Assembly (NCBI RefSeq): GCF_016862115.1
Contig: NZ_BOMI01000028.1
Coordinates: 1-64,000, forward strand
Origin: Paractinoplanes deccanensis
Lineage (GTDB): Bacteria; Actinomycetota; Actinomycetes; Mycobacteriales; Micromonosporaceae
Length of the DNA stretch: 64,000 bases
Reading direction: 5' to 3'
The position numbers and the translations under genes are program-made. The notes under the pieces were generated by a model, which saw nothing but the letters and a program-made list of their open reading frames with translations, did no database searches and had not been told where the DNA came from. Positions 8,482 to 63,900 of this stretch are shown piece after piece. How positions within the stretch are numbered: the first letter of the stretch is position 1; each line of letters opens with the position of its first letter.

Positions 8482-8610
8482 ATGAGGAAGCGTCACCTGA
8501 TCGCGGCGGGATACGTCGTCTCGCTGCCGCTGGGCACCGCGGCCGTGCTGGCCGCGACCGCCGCCGTCGAGGCGATGGCCCTGCGCGTCCGCCGCCGCCT
8601 CACCCGATAG
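8482..8610 (+). CDS. tiny hydrophobic protein (42 aa)
   Basis: ATG 8482 has a near-perfect Shine-Dalgarno AAGGAGG at 8469-8475. The 42-residue product is one membrane helix (about residues 8-30) with a basic tail ending RVRRRLTR. The strong ribosome site argues that it is translated. Its stop codon lies inside the first unit of the repeat array that follows. The function is unknown. Confidence 0.55.
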   Translation: MRKRHLIAAGYVVSLPLGTAAVLAATAAVEAMALRVRRRLTR

Positions 8611-8727
8611 CGGGAGCGCGCGGAAACCCGATAGCGAGAGCACGCGGAAACCCGAAAGCAAGAGCACGCGGAACCCGAAAGCAAGAGCACGCGGAACCCG
8701 AAAGCAAGAGCACCCGAAAAGCAGTGG
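8602..8727. repeat. 23-24-bp tandem array starting at a stop codon
   Basis: The motif CCCGAAAGCAAGAGCACG, or CCCGATAGCGGGAGC in its first copy, recurs with ccc at 8603, 8627, 8651, 8674, 8697 and 8713, so periods of 24, 24, 23, 23 and 16. Copies 3-5 are nearly identical. Copy 1 contains the CGA-TAG end of the 42-aa gene. The array fills most of the gap to the next gene, is non-coding, and its period is not a multiple of three. Confidence 0.9.
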
Positions 8728-19132: not shown

Positions 19133-22015
19133 ATGCGGGTCGCGTTCGGTGTTCTCGGCCCCGTCACGGCCTGGCCCATGTCGCCACCGGACCCATCGCC
19201 CTTATCGGACCCAGCGTCCTTGCGCGACCCAGCGTCCTCGCGTGACCCATGGCCCTCGCGTGACCCATCGCCCTCGCGTGACCCATCGCCCTCGCGTGAC
19301 CCATCGCCCGCACCCGACCCACCGCCCGCACCGAACCGCCCGCCCTCCCCGGACGGCACTCCGCACGCCGCAGCGCCCACCGAGCCGCCCGCCCCACCGT
19401 TGCCGATCGCGCTCAAGGGCCCGGCGCACCGCGCGGTGCTGGCGCGGCTCATCGTGGCGCGCGGGCGTGTCGTGCCCGTCGGCCACCTCGTCGACGATCT
19501 CTGGCCGGTGGCCCCGCCGGAAGGTGCGGTGTCCGCCGTCCGGACCTTTGTGGCCGCCCTCCGCCGCGCCCTCGAGCCCGGCCGGCCGCCGCGAACACCG
19601 GCGACCTTGCTGGTCACCGAGGGACCCGGCTATGCCCTGAGGACCGACCCGGACACGGTGGACGCGTGGCGCTTCGAGCGCGTGGCGACCACCCCCGGCC
19701 CGCTCACCGAGGACACCCTGACGACCGCGCTCGGCTGGTGGCGCGGCCCGGCCTACGCCGACTTCCCCGAGGCCCCGTGGGCCCGAGCCGACCGCGCACG
19801 CCTGGCCGAGCTGCGCCTACGCGCCGTGGAACGACTCGCCGAGGTGCGCCTGGCAGCGGGCCGCCCCGCCGACGCGGTCCCCGACCTGGACGCCCACATC
19901 ACCGAGCACCCGTGGCGCGAGGACGCGTGGCGCCTGCTGGCCCTGGCCCTCTACCGGGCAGGCCGCCAGGGCGACGCCCTGGCCGTGCTCCGCCGAGCCC
20001 GCGCCCACCTGGTGGACCAACTGGGCCTCGACCCCGGCCCCGCCCTGCGCCGCCTCGAAACCGACATCCTCCAGCAGTCCCCCTCCCTCCACACCGACCC
20101 GGCCACCAGCACCACCCTCACCCCACCACCCGCCGACCACACGACCACCCACCAAGCAGCCGCCGAACACACCACCGCCCACTCAACGCCCGCCGGGAAC
20201 AAGGCCCACCCAACGACCGAACACACCACTGCCCACCCAGCAGCCGACCAGCACACCGCCCACCCACCGACCGAACACACCTCCGCCCACCGAGCAGCCG
20301 ACCAGCACACCGCCCACCCAACGACCACTGAAGACGTCACCGCCCACCGAGCAGCCGGCGAGCAGATCACCGCCCAGTCCACTCACGCCGAGCACACCAC
20401 TACCCACCCGACTCACGCCGACGACACCACCGCCCGCCCAACTCACGCCGGGAACACCACGGTCGAAGCCGGCTCAGCCCAGCCCCGCTCGATCGAGCCC
20501 CTCGCGGCCGAGCAGAGGCCGCCCGGGCACGGCGCGGGCCGAGCGGCGGGCCGAGGCGCGGACCGAGCGGCGGGCCGAGGCGCGGACGGCGGGCCGCGGG
20601 CGGCCGGGGAGTCCGTCTGGGCCGAGGTGACCGCGGACTACGACAGGCTCGTCGCGGCCGGGGCGCGGGCCAGGCTCGACTCCACGGTAGGGCTGCTGCG
20701 CGGGCTCGCGGTCACCGGCGGTGGTGGGCTCGCCGCGGCGCGGCGGCATCGGGTGGCGGCGATCGCGGCCGCCGAGGAGCTCGGCGATCCGGTGCTGACC
20801 GCGCGGGTCATCGGTGCCTACGACGTGCCGGCGATCTGGACGCGATCGGACGACCCGGCGCAGGCCGCCGCGATCGTCGCGGCCGCCGAGCGGACCCTGG
20901 CCGCCCTGCCGATCGACAGCGTGGCCGCTCGCGCCCGGCTCCTGGCGACGATCGCCGTGGAGTCGCGGGGCACGCGCGATCCGCGACCACGGCAGTGCGC
21001 CCTGGAAGCCGAGCGGCTCGCCCGAGGGCTGGACGATCCGGGGCTGCTCGCCTTCGCCCTGAACGGCGTCTTCATGCAGAGCTGCCACCGCACCGGCCTG
21101 GCCCCGGAGCGCGACGCGATCGGCGCCGAGCTGGTCGAGCTCGCCGCGACGCACGGTCTCGTCACCGCCGAGGTGCTCGGCCACCTGATCCGCCTGCAGG
21201 CCCGGTCGGCCCTCGGCGACTTCTCCACTGCCGACACGCACGCCGAAGCCGCCGACCGCCTCGCCGCCCGCCACGAGCTGCCCCTGGTCGCGGTCTTCAC
21301 GACCTGGTACCGCGCACTACGCCGGGCAGCCCACCCCGACGCGGCACAGCCGACCACTCAGCACGAACCAACCCGGCAAGCCACGCACACCGAAACGGCA
21401 CAGCAGGCCACCCAGGACGAGGCGGCCCAGCAGGCCGCGCACCCGCAAGCGCCCCGACGGACGGCCCAGCCCGACGTGAGCCAGCAGCCACCACAAACCG
21501 CCCAGCCCGGAGCAAGCCGGCAAGCAACCCACCCCACAACGCTCCAGGACGTCGCGGCGGCTTACGAACAAGCGGCGAAACAACTCGACGGCGCCGGCAT
21601 GCCGGGCCTCGAGGACGGCCTCCTTCCCCTCGCGCTTCTCTGCCTGCACATCGGACGCGGCGAACCGGCGCCCACAACCCACGCGGACTACGGACCCTAC
21701 GAGCCGTGGACCCGCCCGCTGGTGCTGCTCGCACGCGGCGACGTGATCCGCGCACGAGCAGCCCTGCGAGCGGCCCCCGAGCCACCCGCGGACCTGCTGG
21801 CCGAGGCGCTGTGGTGCCTGCTCGGCACCGCGGCCGCCGCCCTCGGCGAGCGAGCCACGGTCGAGCGGGCACGGCAAGCCCTCACCCCGGCCCGCGACGA
21901 GATCGCCGGCGCCGGCAGCGGCTTGCTCACCGCCGGCCCGGTGGCGGCGCACCTGGCCACACTGGAAGCGCCCCCTGCGGCGGCCAGCGGCCGGCAACAG
22001 AGGAAGCGCGGCTGA
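19133..22015 (+). CDS. SARP-type (OmpR-HTH + BTAD) regulator with large low-complexity insertions
   Basis: 960 residues. The first strand VAFGVLGPVTAW and the winged helix ALKGPAHRAVLARLIVARGR, then VVPVGHLVDDLWP, are SARP/AfsR-type, followed by a bacterial transcriptional activation domain (about residues 180-310, to QLGLDPGPALRRLETDIL). The C-terminal half is a helical-repeat domain (about 490-960). No NB-ARC domain is present. Three unusual segments interrupt it. Residues 20-67 hold 18-bp-encoded SRDPSP repeats inside the DNA-binding domain. Residues about 325-446, plus 463-490, form a Thr/His then Gly/Arg-rich linker. Residues about 731-805 form a Gln/Thr/Ala-rich stretch in the helical repeats. 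Such regulators usually activate secondary-metabolite genes; no target cluster is present here. Confidence 0.85.
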   Translation: MRVAFGVLGPVTAWPMSPPDPSPLSDPASLRDPASSRDPWPSRDPSPSRDPSPSRDPSPAPDPPPAPNRPPSPDGTPHAAAPTEPPAPPLPIALKGPAHRAVLARLIVARGRVVPVGHLVDDLWPVAPPEGAVSAVRTFVAALRRALEPGRPPRTPATLLVTEGPGYALRTDPDTVDAWRFERVATTPGPLTEDTLTTALGWWRGPAYADFPEAPWARADRARLAELRLRAVERLAEVRLAAGRPADAVPDLDAHITEHPWREDAWRLLALALYRAGRQGDALAVLRRARAHLVDQLGLDPGPALRRLETDILQQSPSLHTDPATSTTLTPPPADHTTTHQAAAEHTTAHSTPAGNKAHPTTEHTTAHPAADQHTAHPPTEHTSAHRAADQHTAHPTTTEDVTAHRAAGEQITAQSTHAEHTTTHPTHADDTTARPTHAGNTTVEAGSAQPRSIEPLAAEQRPPGHGAGRAAGRGADRAAGRGADGGPRAAGESVWAEVTADYDRLVAAGARARLDSTVGLLRGLAVTGGGGLAAARRHRVAAIAAAEELGDPVLTARVIGAYDVPAIWTRSDDPAQAAAIVAAAERTLAALPIDSVAARARLLATIAVESRGTRDPRPRQCALEAERLARGLDDPGLLAFALNGVFMQSCHRTGLAPERDAIGAELVELAATHGLVTAEVLGHLIRLQARSALGDFSTADTHAEAADRLAARHELPLVAVFTTWYRALRRAAHPDAAQPTTQHEPTRQATHTETAQQATQDEAAQQAAHPQAPRRTAQPDVSQQPPQTAQPGASRQATHPTTLQDVAAAYEQAAKQLDGAGMPGLEDGLLPLALLCLHIGRGEPAPTTHADYGPYEPWTRPLVLLARGDVIRARAALRAAPEPPADLLAEALWCLLGTAAAALGERATVERARQALTPARDEIAGAGSGLLTAGPVAAHLATLEAPPAAASGRQQRKRG
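19190..19333. repeat. 18-bp in-frame tandem repeat in the SARP DNA-binding domain
   Basis: Eight contiguous 18-bp units run from 19190 to 19333, and units 5 and 6 are identical (GACCCATCGCCCTCGCGT). Outer units are diverged. Each encodes six residues of D-P-S-P-S-R type. The array sits between the first beta strand and the helix-turn-helix, where family members have a short loop. Confidence 0.93.
20120..20470. repeat. Thr/His-rich coding repeat (about 54-bp and 30-33-bp units) in the SARP linker
   Basis: The encoded linker alternates two related patterns. One is an 18-residue unit, TTEHTTAHPAADQHTAHP, seen about three times. The other is a shorter STHAEHTTTHP/THADDTTARP/THAGNTTVE unit, seen three times. 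DNA identity between units is high but imperfect. It starts just after the BTAD domain ends. Confidence 0.8.
20536..20600. repeat. 24-bp Gly/Arg/Ala-coding repeat in the SARP gene
   Basis: Two to three copies of a unit beginning CGGGCCGAGGCGCGGACC encode GRGADRAA. It directly precedes the C-terminal helical domain. Confidence 0.75.
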
Positions 22016-32081: not shown

Positions 32082-32375
32082 ATGTACATCGTGTTGCTCC
32101 GCTTCGCCGAGAACAAGGCCGCCGCGGCCGAGCACATGCCCGGCCACCAGCAGTGGATCGAGCAGGGTCTGGCGGACCGGGTCTTCCTGCTCGTCGGCGG
32201 CATTCAGCCGGGGCTCGGCGGCGCGGTGCTGGCGCACGACACGACGCCGGCCGAGCTCCAGCAGCGGGTGGCGGCGGACCCGTTCGTCGCCCACCGCGTC
32301 GTCGACGCCGAGATCCTGGAGATCGCACCGGGCATGACCGACCCGCGGCTGGAGTTCCTGATGCCGGCCCAGTGA
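32082..32375 (+). CDS. YciI-family small protein
   Basis: 97 residues. IVLLRFAENKAAAAEHMPGHQQW and ADPFVAHRVVDAEILEIAPG match the YciI/YCII dimeric alpha-beta fold, which has a conserved His-Asp-type site of unknown chemistry. It is co-transcribed with the TetR regulator. Its last three codons and stop form the first copy of a downstream 15-bp array. Confidence 0.82.
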   Translation: MYIVLLRFAENKAAAAEHMPGHQQWIEQGLADRVFLLVGGIQPGLGGAVLAHDTTPAELQQRVAADPFVAHRVVDAEILEIAPGMTDPRLEFLMPAQ

Positions 32376-32459
32376 AGGCCGGCCCAGTGAAGGTCGGCCC
32401 AGTGAAGGCCGGCCCAGTGAAGGCCGGCCCAGTGAAGGTGAGGGCCGGCCCGATGAAGG
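32364..32459. repeat. 15-bp tandem array grown from the YciI stop codon
   Basis: CCGGCCCAGTGAAGG occurs at 32364, 32379, 32394 (one change), 32409 and 32424, followed by two degenerate copies to about 32475. The first copy encodes the last residues P-A-Q and the TGA stop of the YciI gene, so each extra copy repeats the stop codon in frame. It ends just before the convergent MFS gene. Confidence 0.93.
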
Positions 32460-32482
32460 CGCCGGCCCGGGAGAGGCCGGAG

Positions 32483-41983: not shown

Positions 41984-43570
41984 ATGTCGTTCCTCGCCGA
42001 TCTCAGCGTCCAAGTGAAGATCGTCATCGTCGGGGCGATCGGTGTGGTCGTGGCGGTGGTGATCGGCGCGCTCGCGCTGTTCGCGCTCGGCGACGCGGCC
42101 GACGCGGCGACGGACATCCACGAGGTGAACGTGGAGAACGTCGCCGAGGTCGGCGCGATCGAGGCGGCGCTCGGCGTGGCCCGGGTCGACCTGGCCAACC
42201 AGCTGATCTCCCGCGACGAGGCGACCACCGACAAGTACACGGCGAAGTTCCAGGACGACGTCAAGACCTTCGACGCGGCGCTCGCCGCGTACCGGGAGGG
42301 CAGCCCCGCGGCGACCGCCGACGAGATGGCGGCCGTGGAGGCGTTCTGGGCCACGTACGTCGAGCTGGCCACCACCAAGCAACTGGTCAACGGCGAGCGC
42401 AAGGCGTTCCAGGACTGGCAGACCGTGCGCGACACCGAGATCACCCCGCTCATCGCCGACCTCACCGACAGCGTCGAGGCGCTGGCCGCCGCCGAGCAGG
42501 CCGAGGCGTCCGGTTCGGCCGCGGGCGCGCGCTCGGCGTACAAAGCGAACCGGATCGAGACGATCGCCCTGGTGGTCGCCGGCGGACTGCTCACGCTCGG
42601 CCTGGGGGTCTTCATCGCGCGCGGCATCGTGCGCTCGCTCAACCGGGTGCGCGCCGTCTGCGAGGGTCTCGCCGCCGGCGACCTGACCCGCACCACCGGC
42701 CTCACCTCGGCCGACGAGCCGGGGCGGATGGGCCGCGCGCTGGACGAGGCGCTGCAGCGGCTGCGCGGCACGGTGTCGACGATCGACTCGTCGGCGCTCC
42801 AGCTGGCCAGCGCCAGCGAGGAGATGAACGGCGTGGCGGAGCAGATCGCGGCGTCGGCGGAGGAGACGTCGGTGCAGGCCCAGGTGGTGTCGACGGCGGC
42901 CGAGCACATCTCGCGCAGTGTGGACGCGGTCAGCGCGGGCAGCGACGAGATGGGCGCCGCGATCCGCGAGATCTCCCAGAACGCGAGCGAGGCGGCGCAG
43001 GTGGCGGGCGAGGCGGTGGGCCTGGCCGCGAGCACGTCGGGCACGATGAACCAGCTGGGCGCGTCGTCGTCCGAGATCGGCGACGTGATCCGCACGATCA
43101 CGGCGATCGCCGAGCAGACCAACCTGCTGGCCCTGAACGCGACGATCGAGGCGGCCCGGGCCGGCGAGATGGGCAAGGGCTTCGCGGTGGTGGCGGCGGA
43201 GGTGAAGGACCTGGCGCAGGAGACGGCCCGGGCGACGGAGGACATCTCCCGCCGGGTGGAGGCCATCCAGTCCGACGCGGGCGGCGCGGTGACGGCGATC
43301 GAGGAGATCAGCCGCGTCATCGCCCGGATCAGCGACTTCCAGACGACGATCGCGTCGGCCGTGGAGGAGCAGACGGCCACGACGGCCGAGATGAACCGCA
43401 GCGTCACCGAGGCGGCGACCGGCACGAACGAGATCGCCCAGAACATCGGCGGCGTCGCGGAGGCGGCCCGGCTGACCACGGAGGGCGTGCAGCAGTCCCA
43501 GCAGGCGACGAACGAGTTGGCCCGCATGTCGTCGGAGCTGACAAGCCTGGTGTCGACGTTCCGGTATTAA
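41984..43570 (+). CDS. methyl-accepting chemotaxis protein
   Basis: 528 residues. The first TM helix (about 11-34) is followed by an extracellular helical sensor (about 35-190), a second TM (about 191-213), HAMP (about 215-266) and a signalling domain. That domain has the highly conserved hairpin tip [20 protein letters not shown]. The Gln/Glu-rich adaptation helices are present. It implies CheA/CheW-driven chemotaxis, consistent with a flagellated spore-former. No other che gene is in the window. Confidence 0.95.
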
Positions 43571-43576
43571 GGACAC

Positions 43577-44698
43577 GTGGATCTGCGCATAGGTCACTGG
43601 ACAGGCAACGGCACCGGCGTCACGGTGGTGGTCCCGCCCCCGGGCACGATCGCGTCGGGCGAGGTACGAGGCGGCGCGCCGGCCACCCGCGAGTTCGCCC
43701 TCCTCGACCCGACCCGCCTGGTCGACCGCGTCGACGCCGTGGTCCTCTCCGGCGGCTCCGCCCTGGGCCTGGCAGCGGGCGACGGCGTGGCCCGGGCACT
43801 GTGGGAGCAGGGCCGGGGCTTCGCCACCCCCGCGGGCCCCGTCCCCATCGTGATAGGCATGTCCATCTTCGACGCCTCGGTCGCCACCACACCCCCGACC
43901 GCCGAGAGCGGGCGCTTGGCCTTGGCCGCCGCCCTCAGCCCCGACATCCCCACAGGCCACGTCGGCGCAGGCACCGACACTCCCCCAGGCATCGCCATTC
44001 CCGCAAGCCACGCTTCCGCAGGCAACGACATTCCTACAGGCCGCGCCTCCGCACGCACCGACGTCCCTACCGGCCGCGCCTCCGCACGCACCGACGTCCC
44101 TACAGGCCACGCCTCCGCACGCACCGACATCCCTACCGGCCACGCCTCCGCACGCACCGACATCCCTACAGGCCACGCCGCCGCAGGCAACGACGGACCG
44201 GCGGGCCGGACCGATGCAGGCGCCGAGATACCCACAGGCCGCGTCGGCGCAGGCACCGGCGCCACGGTGGGCAAATGGCGAGGCAGCCTCTCCCCCGGCG
44301 GCATAGGCATCGCCCGAGCCACAGCCGACGGCGCCTCCCTGCTGGCACTGGCGGTAGTCAACGCCTGGGGCGACGTGATAGCCCCGTCCGGCGAGGTCCT
44401 CAACCACCCCACGGCCCCGCCCCGAACCCCCCACTCCCCCTTCGCCGGCACCAACACCACCATCGCCGTCGTGGCAACCGACGCCCGCCTGTCCAAGACG
44501 GACTGCTTCCTGCTGGCCCAGAGCGGCCACACCGGCTACGCCCGAGCCTTGCACCCCGCCCACTCCCGCTACGACGGCGACGCCGTGGTAGCCCTCGCCA
44601 CCGGCACAACGGACGCCAACCTCGACCTCCTCCGAGCCGCAGCAGCCGACCTAACCGCCGAAGCCATCCGCCGCGCCATCACCCCACCCACCTCTTGA
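43577..44698 (+). CDS. P1-family (DmpA/NylC-type) peptidase with large repeat insertion
   Basis: 373 residues. The fold is recognised by LRIGHWTGNGTGVTVVVPPP, RVDAVVLSGGSALGLAAGDG, the GAGTGATVGKWRGSL loop and the AGTNTTIAVVATDA block, whose Thr after Asn is the expected autocleavage nucleophile of the NylC-like branch. Members are self-processing aminopeptidases or amidases. Between the AALSPD and GATVGKW segments, about 105 residues (roughly 123-227) consist of 11-residue repeats of IPTGHASARTD type, absent from the family. The first and last repeats retain the family sequence TG(H/R)VGAGT. Whether the enzyme still folds and processes itself is open. Confidence 0.87.
   Translation: MDLRIGHWTGNGTGVTVVVPPPGTIASGEVRGGAPATREFALLDPTRLVDRVDAVVLSGGSALGLAAGDGVARALWEQGRGFATPAGPVPIVIGMSIFDASVATTPPTAESGRLALAAALSPDIPTGHVGAGTDTPPGIAIPASHASAGNDIPTGRASARTDVPTGRASARTDVPTGHASARTDIPTGHASARTDIPTGHAAAGNDGPAGRTDAGAEIPTGRVGAGTGATVGKWRGSLSPGGIGIARATADGASLLALAVVNAWGDVIAPSGEVLNHPTAPPRTPHSPFAGTNTTIAVVATDARLSKTDCFLLAQSGHTGYARALHPAHSRYDGDAVVALATGTTDANLDLLRAAAADLTAEAIRRAITPPTS
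43943..44257. repeat. 33-bp in-frame tandem array in the P1 peptidase gene
   Basis: About nine 33-bp units run from GAC at 43943 to 44257, one of them enlarged by 18 bp. The middle units (44027-44191) are nearly identical, of the form GACATCCCTACAGGCCACGC followed by CTCCGCACGCACC. The outermost units are diverged and encode the conserved VGAGT motif. The array keeps the reading frame. Confidence 0.95.
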
Positions 44699-44999
44699 CC
44701 GCCGCCCGCCCCGCCTCTTCATCGCGCCGCACCTCCACCCGGCCATGTCCGCTCCCCCAACCGCCACCCTCGTCTCGTCGAGGCGGCGCATCAGTCTCTT
44801 TCACCCGGTCACCGCGGAAAATAAGCCGTCGACGCGACCACCGCAGCTTTCCAAAATCTTTCGTTCGCGACTTTCCCACCGCCGGCCCGCCGCCTTAAAC
44901 GCATCCACTAAGCGGGCCGTCGTGACAATACCGCGCCACGCATCTGAGCCCCTTTTCGGCGCCGAAAATCGCCATGACACCGACCGCGCCCGCACGGAC
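44699..44999. other. gap without a confident gene
   Basis: It contains AT-richer stretches and a perfect 16-bp palindrome TTTTCGGCGCCGAAAA at 44953-44968. Short frames exist on both strands (for example 44745-45053 on the plus strand) but show no codon bias, ribosome site or homology. I see no gene here; the palindrome could be an operator or part of a hairpin. Confidence 0.5.
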
Positions 45000-45235
45000 G
45001 CCGGCCCGGCACGAATAGCAACGCCACGCGCACATCGACCCCGGCCCGAATAGGCAACGCCGCGGGGCTGAGCGACCCGACACGAATAGCAACACCGCAG
45101 GGCTAAACGACCCGACACGAATAGCAACACCGCAGGGCTAAACGACCCGACACGAATGGCAACGCCGGACGGACGTCGGCCCGACACGGATAGCAACACC
45201 AGGCGGACACTGGTCCGGCACGAATGGCACAGCCG
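45000..45235. repeat. 34-36-bp non-coding tandem array
   Basis: A core CACGAATAGCAAC(A/G)CC recurs at 45010, about 45046, 45081, 45116, 45151, 45185 and 45219, so spacings of 36, 35, 35, 35, 34 and 34. The two copies at 45081 and 45116 are identical over their whole 35-bp period. The period is not a multiple of three, so any frame shifts between copies. It lies in the 3' part of the doubtful 45103-46248 frame. Confidence 0.9.
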
Positions 45236-46248
45236 CACGGACGGCGACATCGCTCCAGTGGCGCGGGACCGGCATGCGCGAGGCGGATCGCAGGGGTGTC
45301 GGGGTTGCGCACCGTGGTTCGCAAGCCTCGCCCTCTCGACAGCCTGAAGCCCGCCTGTGAACCCGGCCCGCACCGCGGGTGGACCAACACAGCGAAAACA
45401 CCCTGGCCCACGGAATCGGCGCCGACCGTAGAGCCGACGCCCACGGCGGAACCAACCTCCACCGCGGCGCCGCCTCCCGCAGATCGGGCTGCTGCCACCT
45501 GCATTTCCGGTGCGCCTGCCCACCTCAGCGTCTCGGCCGGCTCGCCCTCAACGGCTTCCGCTTCCACCGGCGCCCCGGCCGAGACGCGCGACTCAACCCC
45601 AGCTGCCGACTGGACAGCAGCCGAACCCTGCGCAGGGAACGTTTCCGCTGCTCTGACCGCCGCGCCGACCAAGCGCAGCGCCACCGGTCGGCGCGGCGAC
45701 TGGGCGCGTTCCGCGGTCACCTCACCAGCCCGCGCCGCGGACGCGTCATCAATCCGCACCGCGGGCACGTCATCAGCCTGCGCCGCCGACGTCTCACCAA
45801 TCCGGGCCACGGACGCGCCACCAGCATGCGCCGCCGACCCCTCACCATCCCACGCCACGGACCCGTCATCAGCCTGTGCCGCCGACACCTCACCAATCCG
45901 GGCCGCGGACCCGCCGCCAGCTTGCGCCGCCGACGTCTCACCAATCCGGGCCACGGGCGCGTCATCAGCTTGCGCCGCCGGCGCCGGGCGCTCGGTGTAA
46001 GTCGCCTCCTCACCCCAAATCAGCGGCGGCACCCGCTCCACCGGGTCGTGCAAACCCACCGCACCGCACTCATACGAACAGCCCCGCGCGCGGCACAGCT
46101 TCTCGGCGTGACGACGAGGGAGTCCCCAGCGCCGCCGACGCTCGTGATCGGCCCGGAACCTCTCCTGCGCCGGGGAATAACGGCGCGACTTCGTCCGGTC
46201 GCGCATCGCGGCCATCTGCGACCTGGAGAAGAGTCCGGGCTGTCTCAT
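45103..46248 (-). CDS. unknown protein with conserved-looking N-terminus and 48-bp repeat region
   Basis: Start chosen at ATG 46248 (MRQPGLFSRSQMAAMRDRTK). The first ~55 residues continue SRRYSPAQERFRADHERRRR, WGLPRRHAEKLC and resemble short actinobacterial proteins of unknown function (from memory). After ERVPPLIWGEEATYTERP the sequence becomes Ala/Gly/Asp-rich, with 16-residue repeats (residues about 93-172) and then low-complexity tails running into the 35-bp array. The true gene may be only the N-terminal part, with the rest being repeat-extended read-through. Confidence refers to a gene starting here; its 3' end is uncertain. Confidence 0.45.
   Translation of the reverse strand: MRQPGLFSRSQMAAMRDRTKSRRYSPAQERFRADHERRRRWGLPRRHAEKLCRARGCSYECGAVGLHDPVERVPPLIWGEEATYTERPAPAAQADDAPVARIGETSAAQAGGGSAARIGEVSAAQADDGSVAWDGEGSAAHAGGASVARIGETSAAQADDVPAVRIDDASAARAGEVTAERAQSPRRPVALRLVGAAVRAAETFPAQGSAAVQSAAGVESRVSAGAPVEAEAVEGEPAETLRWAGAPEMQVAAARSAGGGAAVEVGSAVGVGSTVGADSVGQGVFAVLVHPRCGPGSQAGFRLSRGRGLRTTVRNPDTPAIRLAHAGPAPLERCRRPCGCAIRAGPVSAWCCYPCRADVRPALPFVSGRLALRCCYSCRVV
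45733..45972. repeat. 48-bp in-frame tandem repeat
   Basis: Four contiguous 48-bp units (45781, 45829, 45877, 45925), plus a diverged one from 45733, all contain CGCCGCCGAC and, mostly, CTCACCAATCCGGGCCAC. On the minus strand each encodes sixteen residues of the form DDGSVARIGETSAAQA. Confidence 0.9.
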
Positions 46249-46277
46249 AAACCATTTTCCCGCACCGCAGAGATCAC

Positions 46278-46487
46278 ATGCAAAAGAAGGATCATGCCAA
46301 TCCAAAGAATCATCGGCGTGCCAACCAGAAAAAGCGGCTTGCCGCGGAGAATACGCGCCTGATAGCGTTACTTCACGCCTACCAAGAAGGTCGGCTGTCA
46401 ACGAAGCGGTGCGCCTTGGATGAATTCGTAATGCGGGAGCGCAGGGGGACTTCAGCCCTTCTCGCCGCGCAGATCATGGCAGGGTGA
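46278..46487 (+). CDS. possible small protein (69 aa) in an AT-richer patch
   Basis: MQKKDHANPKNHRRANQKKR, LAAENTRLIALLHAYQEGRL and LDEFVMRERRGTSALLAAQI reads like a helical basic protein. Its third codon positions are much less GC-rich than in neighbouring genes, and the ribosome site is weak. It lies divergently next to the 46248 start. It may be a foreign small gene or an accidental frame. Confidence 0.3.
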   Translation: MQKKDHANPKNHRRANQKKRLAAENTRLIALLHAYQEGRLSTKRCALDEFVMRERRGTSALLAAQIMAG

Positions 46488-60920: not shown

Positions 60921-63900
60921 TCAGCTGCCGAAACCGGCATTCAGGTAGTAGTCGGCGACCACACGGGCGGCGCGGGGGTCGACGACCGCGAGGGCCCGCA
61001 GCGCGCCCTCGTGTCCGTCCAGGACCAGCGCGCGGGCCAGCAAGGCGCGGCCCAGGTCCGGCCGTTGCGCCTGGGCGAAGGCGGTGGCCGTGGTCGCGAG
61101 GGCGCCTGCCATGAACGACGGTGACCGCGCCGTCTCGGCGATCCGCTCGATCGAGCGGGCCACCTCGGCCGCCTGGCCGTGCCGGCCGGCGGCGACCAGG
61201 CCCCGGATGGCGATCGCGAGCACCGCGGTGCGGACCACCCGGTCCTCGATCCGTCCGGCGAGCTCGGCCACGGCCCGGGCGGCGAGGGCACTGCGGTCGG
61301 TGCGGCCGCAGCGGGCCCAGGCTTGGGCGAGCACACCCAGGAGGTCCGCGTACGCCTCCGCGTCGCCGGCGAACGCCGCCGGATCCCGCTCGGCGGCCTG
61401 CAGGCCGGGTTCCAGGTCGTACGCGAGCTCGACCACCCGCTCGGGCGGGAGGTGGCCGGCCAGGGCGGCGATCAGCTCGGCGGTGAGGGTCCGGCGGGCC
61501 GCTTCGTCGTCCACTGCCGCCAGTTCGCTCAGGACCTCGTTCAGCGCGTCGCCGGAGGAGGAGGGGCCGAGCAGCCCGAACAGCGCCCGCAGGCGCGGCA
61601 CGGCCTCATCGATCAGGTCGACGAGGTGCCGGGCACGCTCCGGCTCACCGGCCTCGGCCAGGACGCGGGCCATCTCGGTCAGCCGGGCGCGGCGCTCGTA
61701 CGGGTTGGCCAGCCCGGCCGCCCACTCGACGGCCTCGTCCAGCCGGCCGGCGGCCGCCAGCGCGCCGGGCACCTGGCCGAGCAGCGGGTGCAGCGTCTGC
61801 GTGCGGCCCAGCGCGGAGGCGGCCTCCACCATCGCGTCGGCCACCGCGGTCCCGGAAACCCTGGCCGTCATCCGGGTCCGGGCGATCAGGATCTCCAGCC
61901 GTACGGCGTCGTCCGTGGCCGCGGCCTCGCACCGGCGCATCCGCTCGTCGAGGGCGGCCGCCGGAGCGGGGTCCGGCAGCGCCACGGCGACGCGGGCCAG
62001 CTGGGTGAGCACGGGCGTGACGTCGGCCCGGCCGGCCATGGCGGTCACCAGCTCCCCGGCCTGCTCGTGCTGTCCGGCGCGGGCGAGCTCGTCGGCCAGC
62101 GTGGCCAGCAGCCGCAGCGCGGATAGCCCGGTGGCCGCGGAGCGCACGGTCGTCTCGGCGAGCGCCGCGACCCGCAGCGCCTCGTCGCCCTCGCCGGCCG
62201 CGTGCAGCGCCATGGCCAGCGCCGCGAGCGCGGCCGCCCGCCGGGACGGGTCGGCGATCTCCAGGACCGTCGATCGGGCCCGGTCGAAGCGGCCGGCCGC
62301 GGCCAGCATCTGGGCGATCCCGTCCCGGGCGAAGTCCCGGGCGGTGTCGTCGAGCACCCCGGCGACCACGTCGAGGGCGCGGTCGGCCTGGTCCATCCGG
62401 GCCAGCGCGAGCGCGAGGTGGGCCCGGGCGGTGTGCTTGCCCAGGAGCTCCGGCATCGCCTCGATCTCCCGTTCGGCCCGGGCGACGTGCCACTGCGCTC
62501 GTTCCGTGTCGCCGAGGGCCGCCCAGACCGGGGCGACGACGGCGAACCGCCACCACGAGTCCACGGCCGTCCACGGGGCCTGATGGTTCTCGGCCTCCTC
62601 GACCAGTGCCCGCGCCCAGGCGGGGTCCACGGTGCGGAACGCGTCCGCGGCGATCAGCCGCCCCTCGATCCGGGGTCCCGGCTGGTCGAGCTCGGCGAGC
62701 AGGGACTTCGTCCACGCCGCCCGGCCGGTCGCGGCGGCCAGCCGCACCGCGCCGACCAGCGCCCGGTCCGCGGCCGCCGTGCTCCCGTCCTCCCGGGCCG
62801 CCGCGAGCGCAAGCGCAGCAGCCTCCTCGGGCCCCAGAGCCAGGGCGGAAACGGAGTCGGGCGCGGAAGCCGAGCCGGGCGAACGGGCCGAGGCCGCAGC
62901 CGAGTCCGGCGAGGGAGCCGGCGCAGCGGCCGGATCGGGCGAAGGAGCCAGGGCGGCGGCCACGTTAGCGAGGAGCAGGTACAGGCCGGCTCGCGGCTCC
63001 GGGTGGGCGATCCGCTCGGCCTCCCCGGCCGCGGCCCGCAGCAGCCGGCCGGCGAGCTCCGGGTGGCCCAGCATCGCGGCGGCCTCGGCCGCCGCCGCCA
63101 GGGCCGGCCCGCGGGTCTCCCCGGCCGGTTCCTCGGCGGCGCTCTCCTCGGCCGCCGCGACCAGGTCCCGGGCCCGTTCCGGGTGCCGCTCCCCCAGGTG
63201 CACCGCCACCGAGGCGAGCACCCGCGCTCGCGGGCCGGCCTCGCGCACCGACCGGGCCATCGCCTCGGCCCGGTCCGGGTGGTCCAGCACCGCCCACATC
63301 ACCGGGAGCAGGTGCGGCATCGCCTTGATCCGGTCGTGCAGCACGCCCAGGTGCGCCGCGACCCGGGCCAGGCCCGGAAGGCACCGCGGGTCGGGGTCGA
63401 TCACCGCGACCGCGCCGGCTCGCAGCGACGCCTGCGCCACCGCGATCTCGGACAGGGCGGCGGCGTCGCCACCGAACACGTCACGCATCCGGTCGTGCCG
63501 GTCCAGGTCGGTGACGCACGCGACCAGCCGGTCGATCTCGCCGGCCGACTCGAGCATCGCCGGGTAGCCGGTCAGCAGGTAGCGCGGAGTGTCACCGGGC
63601 CAGCGCCGGGCCCGGAACCGGTCGGCCCACGCGCCGAGCCGGGCGCGGTAGCCGGCCATCCGCCGCTGCCCGAGCTGCCGGGTCACGGCGTCCTGGAGGT
63701 TCTGGTGGGCGAGCAGGTAGACGCGTTCGCCGCCGGGCCGGCCGACGATCACCCGGGCCGGCGCCTGGTCGAGCGTCTCGGCCATCTCGTACGGCGCCAG
63801 GCCCGTGAGGTCCTCCAGATCCGCCGTGGTCAGGCCACCGCGGGCGGCGGCGATCAGGCCGAGCAGGTCGCGCTGCCGGTCGCCCGCGTGCAGCAGCGAG

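Follow-up and report, generated by a model that had tools for sequence, protein, structure and literature searches.

A hydrolase gene of the P1 family in the soil bacterium Paractinoplanes deccanensis contains an in-frame array of 33-bp repeats whose source can be read in the gene itself: a native segment of the enzyme was probably duplicated in tandem and in frame, and tolerated in a loop of a protein that is under purifying selection. Large loop insertions are common in enzymes, but their origin can seldom be observed, the sequence they came from having been erased. The process is already known, and the present example is clear but not unique; it is unusually readable because its source holds family-invariant residues, drifted intermediates survive, and a relative without the insert is available for comparison.

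The genome carrying the array (GCF_016862115.1, here G000) is a 10.6-Mb draft, and the contig with the array is 69.9 kb long; the window is the stretch of 64,000 nucleotides of this contig that was analysed. Other genomes and loci that were compared bear G and L numbers. The coordinates of the features, and the congeners with inserts at each of four sites, are collected in Table 1.

The array and its host gene

The hydrolase belongs to the Peptidase_S58 family by its match to the Pfam model PF03576 (E=1e-33; 117.6 bits, the cutoff being 23.9), while an NCBIfam search of the protein returned no family at E up to 1. P1 is the MEROPS name for the former S58 family, adopted because the nucleophile that becomes N-terminal may be Ser or Thr (PMC3964991, in the part of the text available). 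The solved relatives by sequence include an L-aminopeptidase/D-esterase (9yys), ThnT, and hydrolases of the Nyl50 and NylC types. In an alignment of 53 homologues T294 is invariant and N293 at least 90% conserved, so that the protein has, at sequence level, the nucleophile residue of P1; in the alignment with ThnT, T294 also corresponds to the position occupied by Cys in the T282C entry 3s3u. The hydrolase presumably still cleaves itself and works as an enzyme.

Tandem Repeats Finder reports a repeat at 44007-44194 (period 33, 5.7 copies, 90% match, score 285), and base-level comparison extends the array, in frame, to nine units and one 18-bp partial, which bears out the annotated presence of an array in this reading frame. 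The phase that needs the fewest changes is D-IPTG[H/R]VGAGT, by which the G of GATVGKW is native and lies outside the duplicated segment. The two outer units are identical without a break over stretches of 10 and 16 bases (the latter 17 if the following base is counted), and none of 20,000 random 33-mers of the gene's composition equals the first unit's match to the last. The four central units share 30-31 of 33 bases pairwise, and the inner units that flank them (ASAGN and AAAGN) seem transitional from native VGAGT to central ASART; the comparison agrees with the reading of the inner units as drifted copies. Measured against short homologues, the insert comprises 94 residues by unit phase and 93 by MAFFT alignment, fewer than the roughly 105 first proposed.

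Table 1. Features of the hydrolase locus in window coordinates, and sites of inserts in congener orthologues
Feature	Position	Strand	Remark
Upstream chemoreceptor (MCP) gene, synteny marker	41984..43570	+	PF00015, E=2.5e-32
P1/S58 family hydrolase gene with array	43577..44698	+	GTG start, 373 aa, PF03576
33-bp array	43943..44257		unit starts 43943, 43994, 44027, 44060, 44093, 44126, 44159, 44192, 44225
Unit 1, DIPTGHVGAGT, near-native first copy	43943..43975	+	30/33 bases identical to last copy
18-nt partial unit, DTPPGI, in frame	43976..43993	+	
Six inner 33-nt units, AIPASHASAGN, DIPTGRASART, DVPTGRASART, DVPTGHASART, DIPTGHASART, DIPTGHAAAGN	43994..44191	+	
Unit 8, DGPAGRTDAGA, strongly degenerate	44192..44224	+	17-21/33 bases match other units
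Last unit, EIPTGRVGAGT, native copy	44225..44257	+	continues into GATVGKW
Native GATVGKW after last copy	44258..44278	+	G228 and A229 invariant in 53 homologues
Inferred self-cleavage site N293/T294, putative nucleophile T294	44453..44458	+	from alignment
Insert site A, after FDASVA			G010, G014, G029, G053, G058
Insert site B, before VGAGTG			G000, G020, G023, G048
Insert site C, before N-T cleavage site			G007, G008, G020, G032, G043, G054
Insert site D, near C-terminus			G052

An error of assembly, with a wrong number of units or an array inflated by the assembler, would be the simplest dismissal of this structure; the assembly is a draft of 260 contigs, and tandem repeats reportedly cause assembly errors (PMC6868369). 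We regard it as highly improbable, as the units differ at distinguishing positions, every length keeps the frame, the array lies inside its contig, and the single-contig genome G053 also carries an array in the hydrolase gene. The exact copy number may nevertheless be wrong in such an assembly, a point that counts against the preferred explanation.

Origin of the repeat unit

The segment from which the units appear to derive is conserved family sequence. Aligned with 52 homologues (among them proteins from Oscillospiraceae, Lachnospiraceae, Achromobacter and Acidobacteria), the window protein has invariant residues at G224, G226, G228 and A229 and a residue conserved to at least 90% at A225; all five lie in or just after the last copy. 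Of the 58 congeners that keep this region (G000 included), none lacks any of the three glycines of GAGTG; its A is found in 57 and the preceding V in 41, and T and A alternate 29 to 28. The initial annotation took the VGAGT-containing sequence to be native and conserved, which holds for the glycines and less so for V. It also named two observations that would speak against its reading, a lack of such conservation in the family and an insert in all relatives; both were looked for, and the glycines proved invariant while most congeners have no insert.

The best 24-base match of the insert to the adjacent native sequence is 23 of 24, against at most 18 of 24 elsewhere in the gene, where none of 708 windows reaches 23. 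Searched against G000, the array DNA matches itself only, and a 21-base unit pattern finds seven of the nine units, with no further hit in the 10.6-Mb draft; in 66 other congeners the pattern has a single match, in G066. A dispersed or mobile repeat is ruled out, since both the array DNA and the unit pattern match only the hydrolase gene in G000. G003, the closest relative found, is joined to G000 in the tree at 100/100 support (hydrolase identity of 83% over 216 tree columns and 77% over 270 core codons) and has no insert. An MCP gene 83% identical to that of G000 stands upstream of the insert-free G003 orthologue, and the two genomes share a galactosidase-MCP-hydrolase neighbourhood. The units are thus homologous to adjacent single-copy sequence and the nearest relative is without them, as is expected of a repeat grown from native sequence; because the unit occurs nowhere else in G000 and G003 is without the insert, the array would have grown in place, and the proposed course, duplication of a native segment followed by expansion of the copies, finds support here. 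With D from the left flank and the native G of GATVGKW, one 33-nt tandem duplication would explain the outer units. Aligning the DNA of both outer copies with that of G003 gives too many gaps to be informative.

We also examined whether the insert could be ancestral in the family, using 66 further loci (L092-L148 and L210-L218, with L093 from Actinoplanes), of which 58 gave a frame and L215, L094, L109, L114, L116, L117, L121 and L126 were dropped. An ancestral insert is unsupported: among the 58 loci, only L212 (group g7, a second genus of the same family) has a site-B insert of at least 12 residues, and that insert is 22 residues of unrelated sequence. Near site C, proteins of other phyla have segments, mostly of 15-19 residues and by eye without the look of repeats, which may be ancestral.

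We therefore propose the following course of events. In-frame duplication of a native segment of about 33 bp, DIPTG[R/H]VGAGT, most likely by replication slippage or unequal recombination, would have come first; the simplest placing for it is the G000 lineage once that had separated from G003. Later duplications or exchanges inside the young array would, as the pattern suggests, have multiplied and homogenised the drifted inner copies of the ASART type. The duplicate could be tolerated because the copy joined to GATVGKW, the last one, can still form the glycine-rich element of the fold, while the remaining copies would project from the fold as 94 disordered residues. This order of events, and an array that is largely neutral, are what we infer.

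The near-native first copy is not needed by this explanation and could hint at selection on that copy. In a quite unlikely reading, the array is a reversible length switch and the first copy is kept as useful, for example as an alternative for the native place: the outer units are so nearly identical that a single recombination event between the two would excise the array and give back the short enzyme. If that were true, the separate loop arrays of this enzyme across Actinoplanes would be tuners of access or of self-processing, not passive growth.

Known systems offer partial parallels to growth from a native segment. In the beta-lactamase gene penA, tandem duplications are reported to arise through paired direct repeats and other short paired sequences (PMC4169377, in the part available), and, as in G000, a native conserved loop segment is tandemly duplicated inside an enzyme gene; the penA repeats, however, are bound up with drug selection, a changed substrate range and frequent reversion, whereas G000 has a natural array of nine drifted units. 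A survey of prokaryotic satellites that code for amino-acid repeats likewise describes arrays of long units with periods that are mostly a multiple of 3, but it is general, does not mention Actinoplanes and, in the part of the text available, traces no unit to a native enzyme segment (PMC6749651). Among the matches listed in the open-access literature, no paper treats tandem arrays in Actinoplanes or in the P1/S58 family, which does not prove that there is none.

Predicted fold and selection

An AlphaFold2 model of the array-bearing protein, based on a 53-row alignment, has a pLDDT of 79.8 and a pTM of 0.77, with pLDDT at or above 90 at 237 of the 373 residues. The predicted model has the DmpA/ThnT fold. 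It aligns with the Nyl50 structure over 275 residues at 1.7 A, and its VIA Z scores run overall from 39.6 to 26.8 (Nyl50 39.6, ThnT 37.0, NylC 34.5, BapA 28.5, DmpA 27.8). The insert-free orthologue of A. utahensis aligns comparably, with a Z of 37.6 and 2.0 A over 272 residues. G000 shares with DmpA, BapA, ThnT, NylC and Nyl50 the fold, the conserved glycine-rich segment and the threonine at the inferred cleavage site, and differs from them, as a group rather than singly compared for arrays, in its array of 94 residues.

The two outer copies fare differently in the model. The first (residues 123-133) falls in a stretch with a mean pLDDT of 60 over residues 121-130, and values below 50 at residues 126-128 and 132-214; the last (residues 217-227) rises from a mean of 63 over residues 211-220 to 96 over residues 221-230. 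On this prediction the last copy, not the first, would lead into the native fold, with the first copy and the inner units in low confidence. The initial annotation held that the outer copies keep the fold; since only the last enters high-confidence structure, the statement is right about a single one of them. The low pLDDT points to disorder in the array but is no proof of it. The placing of the array in a catalytic loop, beside the self-processing region, is unsupported, the inferred N293/T294 site lying 66 residues past the last copy in sequence.

The core of the hydrolase is under purifying selection, no weaker in the array-bearing lineage than in G003: core dN/dS of G000 is 0.39 against G003, 0.31 against G005 and 0.32 against G065, and that of insert-free G003 is 0.36 and 0.37 against G005 and G065. 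The value of 0.39 is the second highest among 15 near pairs and so speaks somewhat against our explanation, though G003 is equally high against outsiders. Differences between units are spread about evenly over the three codon positions (96/84/99 over all unit pairs, 62/40/57 over inner pairs) with no excess at the third, which fits an array that is hardly constrained, by a rough test in which the units are non-independent.

Decay offers another account, in which the insert marks loss of function and a pseudogene in the making. Three of the 67 congeners searched (G012, G037 and G050) have no match and the G009 protein is without its middle, so the gene is probably dispensable, and dN/dS is rather high; but dN/dS is well under 1, the frame is open, the family-invariant residues are retained and the core of the model is confident, and we find decay very unlikely.

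Third-position G+C is 0.74 in the array and 0.84 in the whole gene, against 0.82-0.97 among the 51 congener genes listed. A rough coding test based on this measure labelled the gene 'noncoding?' because the value is low around the array. Across window positions 43937-44386 it is 0.73-0.80 in and just past the array, several other 90-base stretches have 0.93-0.97, and the 3' end of the gene is also low (0.80). The five lowest core values of the 59 orthologues belong to insert carriers (G032, G054, G053, G023 and G008), the medians being little different (0.911 with and 0.924 without an insert).

Recurrence among congeners

The search of the 67 congeners gave 59 with an orthologue. Besides the three genomes with no match, G017 and G019 (both ThnT-like by eye) and G063 and G064 (no frame found in either) gave weaker matches only, and G025 matched (E=7.4e-5) over query residues 142-259 only. 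Inserts of at least 12 residues occur in 15 of the 59 orthologues, a 13-residue C-terminal tail in G014 not being counted, and a unique event is thereby ruled out. In the predicted model all four insert sites lie between secondary-structure elements (strands or helices). Eleven of the 15 carry a repetitive insert, scoring at least 74 in Tandem Repeats Finder; G008, G010, G048 and G058 do not. Insert sequences vary among species, even within one site. On a 58-row tree built without the insert regions and without G009, presence changes four times at site A, four at B and six at C, or 14 times for any insert; these counts are approximate, as 18 of the 55 inner branches stay open and the tree does not separate gains from losses. 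A shared origin of the site-B inserts is unsupported, with four changes for four carriers.

The native sequence flanking an insert outscores all other core windows as a source in five of the 15 genes: clearly in G000 (23 vs 18) and G043 (24 vs 17), and by less in G014 (20 vs 18), G010 (19 vs 18) and one of the two insert segments of G007 (18 vs 16). In the remaining 10 no flanking window stands out. On these scores, an origin from the native flank appears strongly supported in G000 and G043, less so in the other three, and unsupported for the other insert carriers.

Outside Actinoplanes, site-C inserts occur in four of the five orthologues read from group g7, and every one of the 22 matching genomes of group g12 has an unbroken single match, leaving no room for a large insert. 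Two further variants were seen among the congeners. The G009 gene (L036) is a natural loss form: a large in-frame deletion in its interior has taken out both the glycine-rich segment and the NAWGDV region and left the N-T site in place. In G052 (L066/L015), the site-D insert is an array of 80 residues, and a second repeat lies in the same frame just upstream of the N-terminus.

Tandem arrays are frequent in these genomes, as judged from samples that are small: the 420-kb sample of G000, which includes the window and many contig ends, holds 67 arrays (15.9 per 100 kb; period divisible by 3 in 53 of them), samples of seven other Actinoplanes hold 2.5-20 per 100 kb, and g12 and g7 hold eight in 220 kb and 17 in 160 kb. 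No arrays were found in randomised sequences. Two further genera are array-rich (G083, four in 20 kb; G081, two in 20 kb) yet have unbroken hydrolase matches, so that density alone does not predict inserts. The hydrolase genes together hold 11 arrays in 52.3 kb (in 10 of 59 genes), or 21 per 100 kb against 10-16 in the sampled genomes, and some preference for the gene is therefore possible; 5.2-8.3 arrays would be expected from the sampled densities (P 0.02 to 0.22), an enrichment that is at most mild, and a special hotspot is not established. Most simply, the G000 array is one product of a genome-wide habit, in a gene whose ancestry can be read.

Directly downstream of the hydrolase gene the window has an array of 35-bp units (44990-45242), whose period is not divisible by 3, and a 24/48-bp array (45711-45985) in a reverse-strand reading frame without a Pfam match (45103-46401), making three arrays within about 2 kb. 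More arrays, with periods of about 15 to 54 bp, lie at 8602-8720, 19190-19347, 20110-20587, 32363-32477 and 62837-62961.

Recurrence also bears on whether the loop is adaptive, its extension having been selected for changed substrate access, oligomer contacts or the rate of self-cleavage. The return of inserts in these congeners at only four sites, the somewhat raised density of arrays in the gene, and the precedent of beta-lactamase omega-loop repeats that alter substrate range (PMC4169377, in the part available) would favour such selection. Against it stand the unit differences with no third-position excess, the unlikeness of insert sequences between species, even at one site, and an array frequency near that of the sampled genomes, and on balance we think it unlikely. 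The roughly 14 changes at four loop sites of one gene across a genus form a natural series for measuring the start, growth and decay of insertions, and the same series is a gauge of how much insertion an N-terminal-nucleophile hydrolase tolerates.
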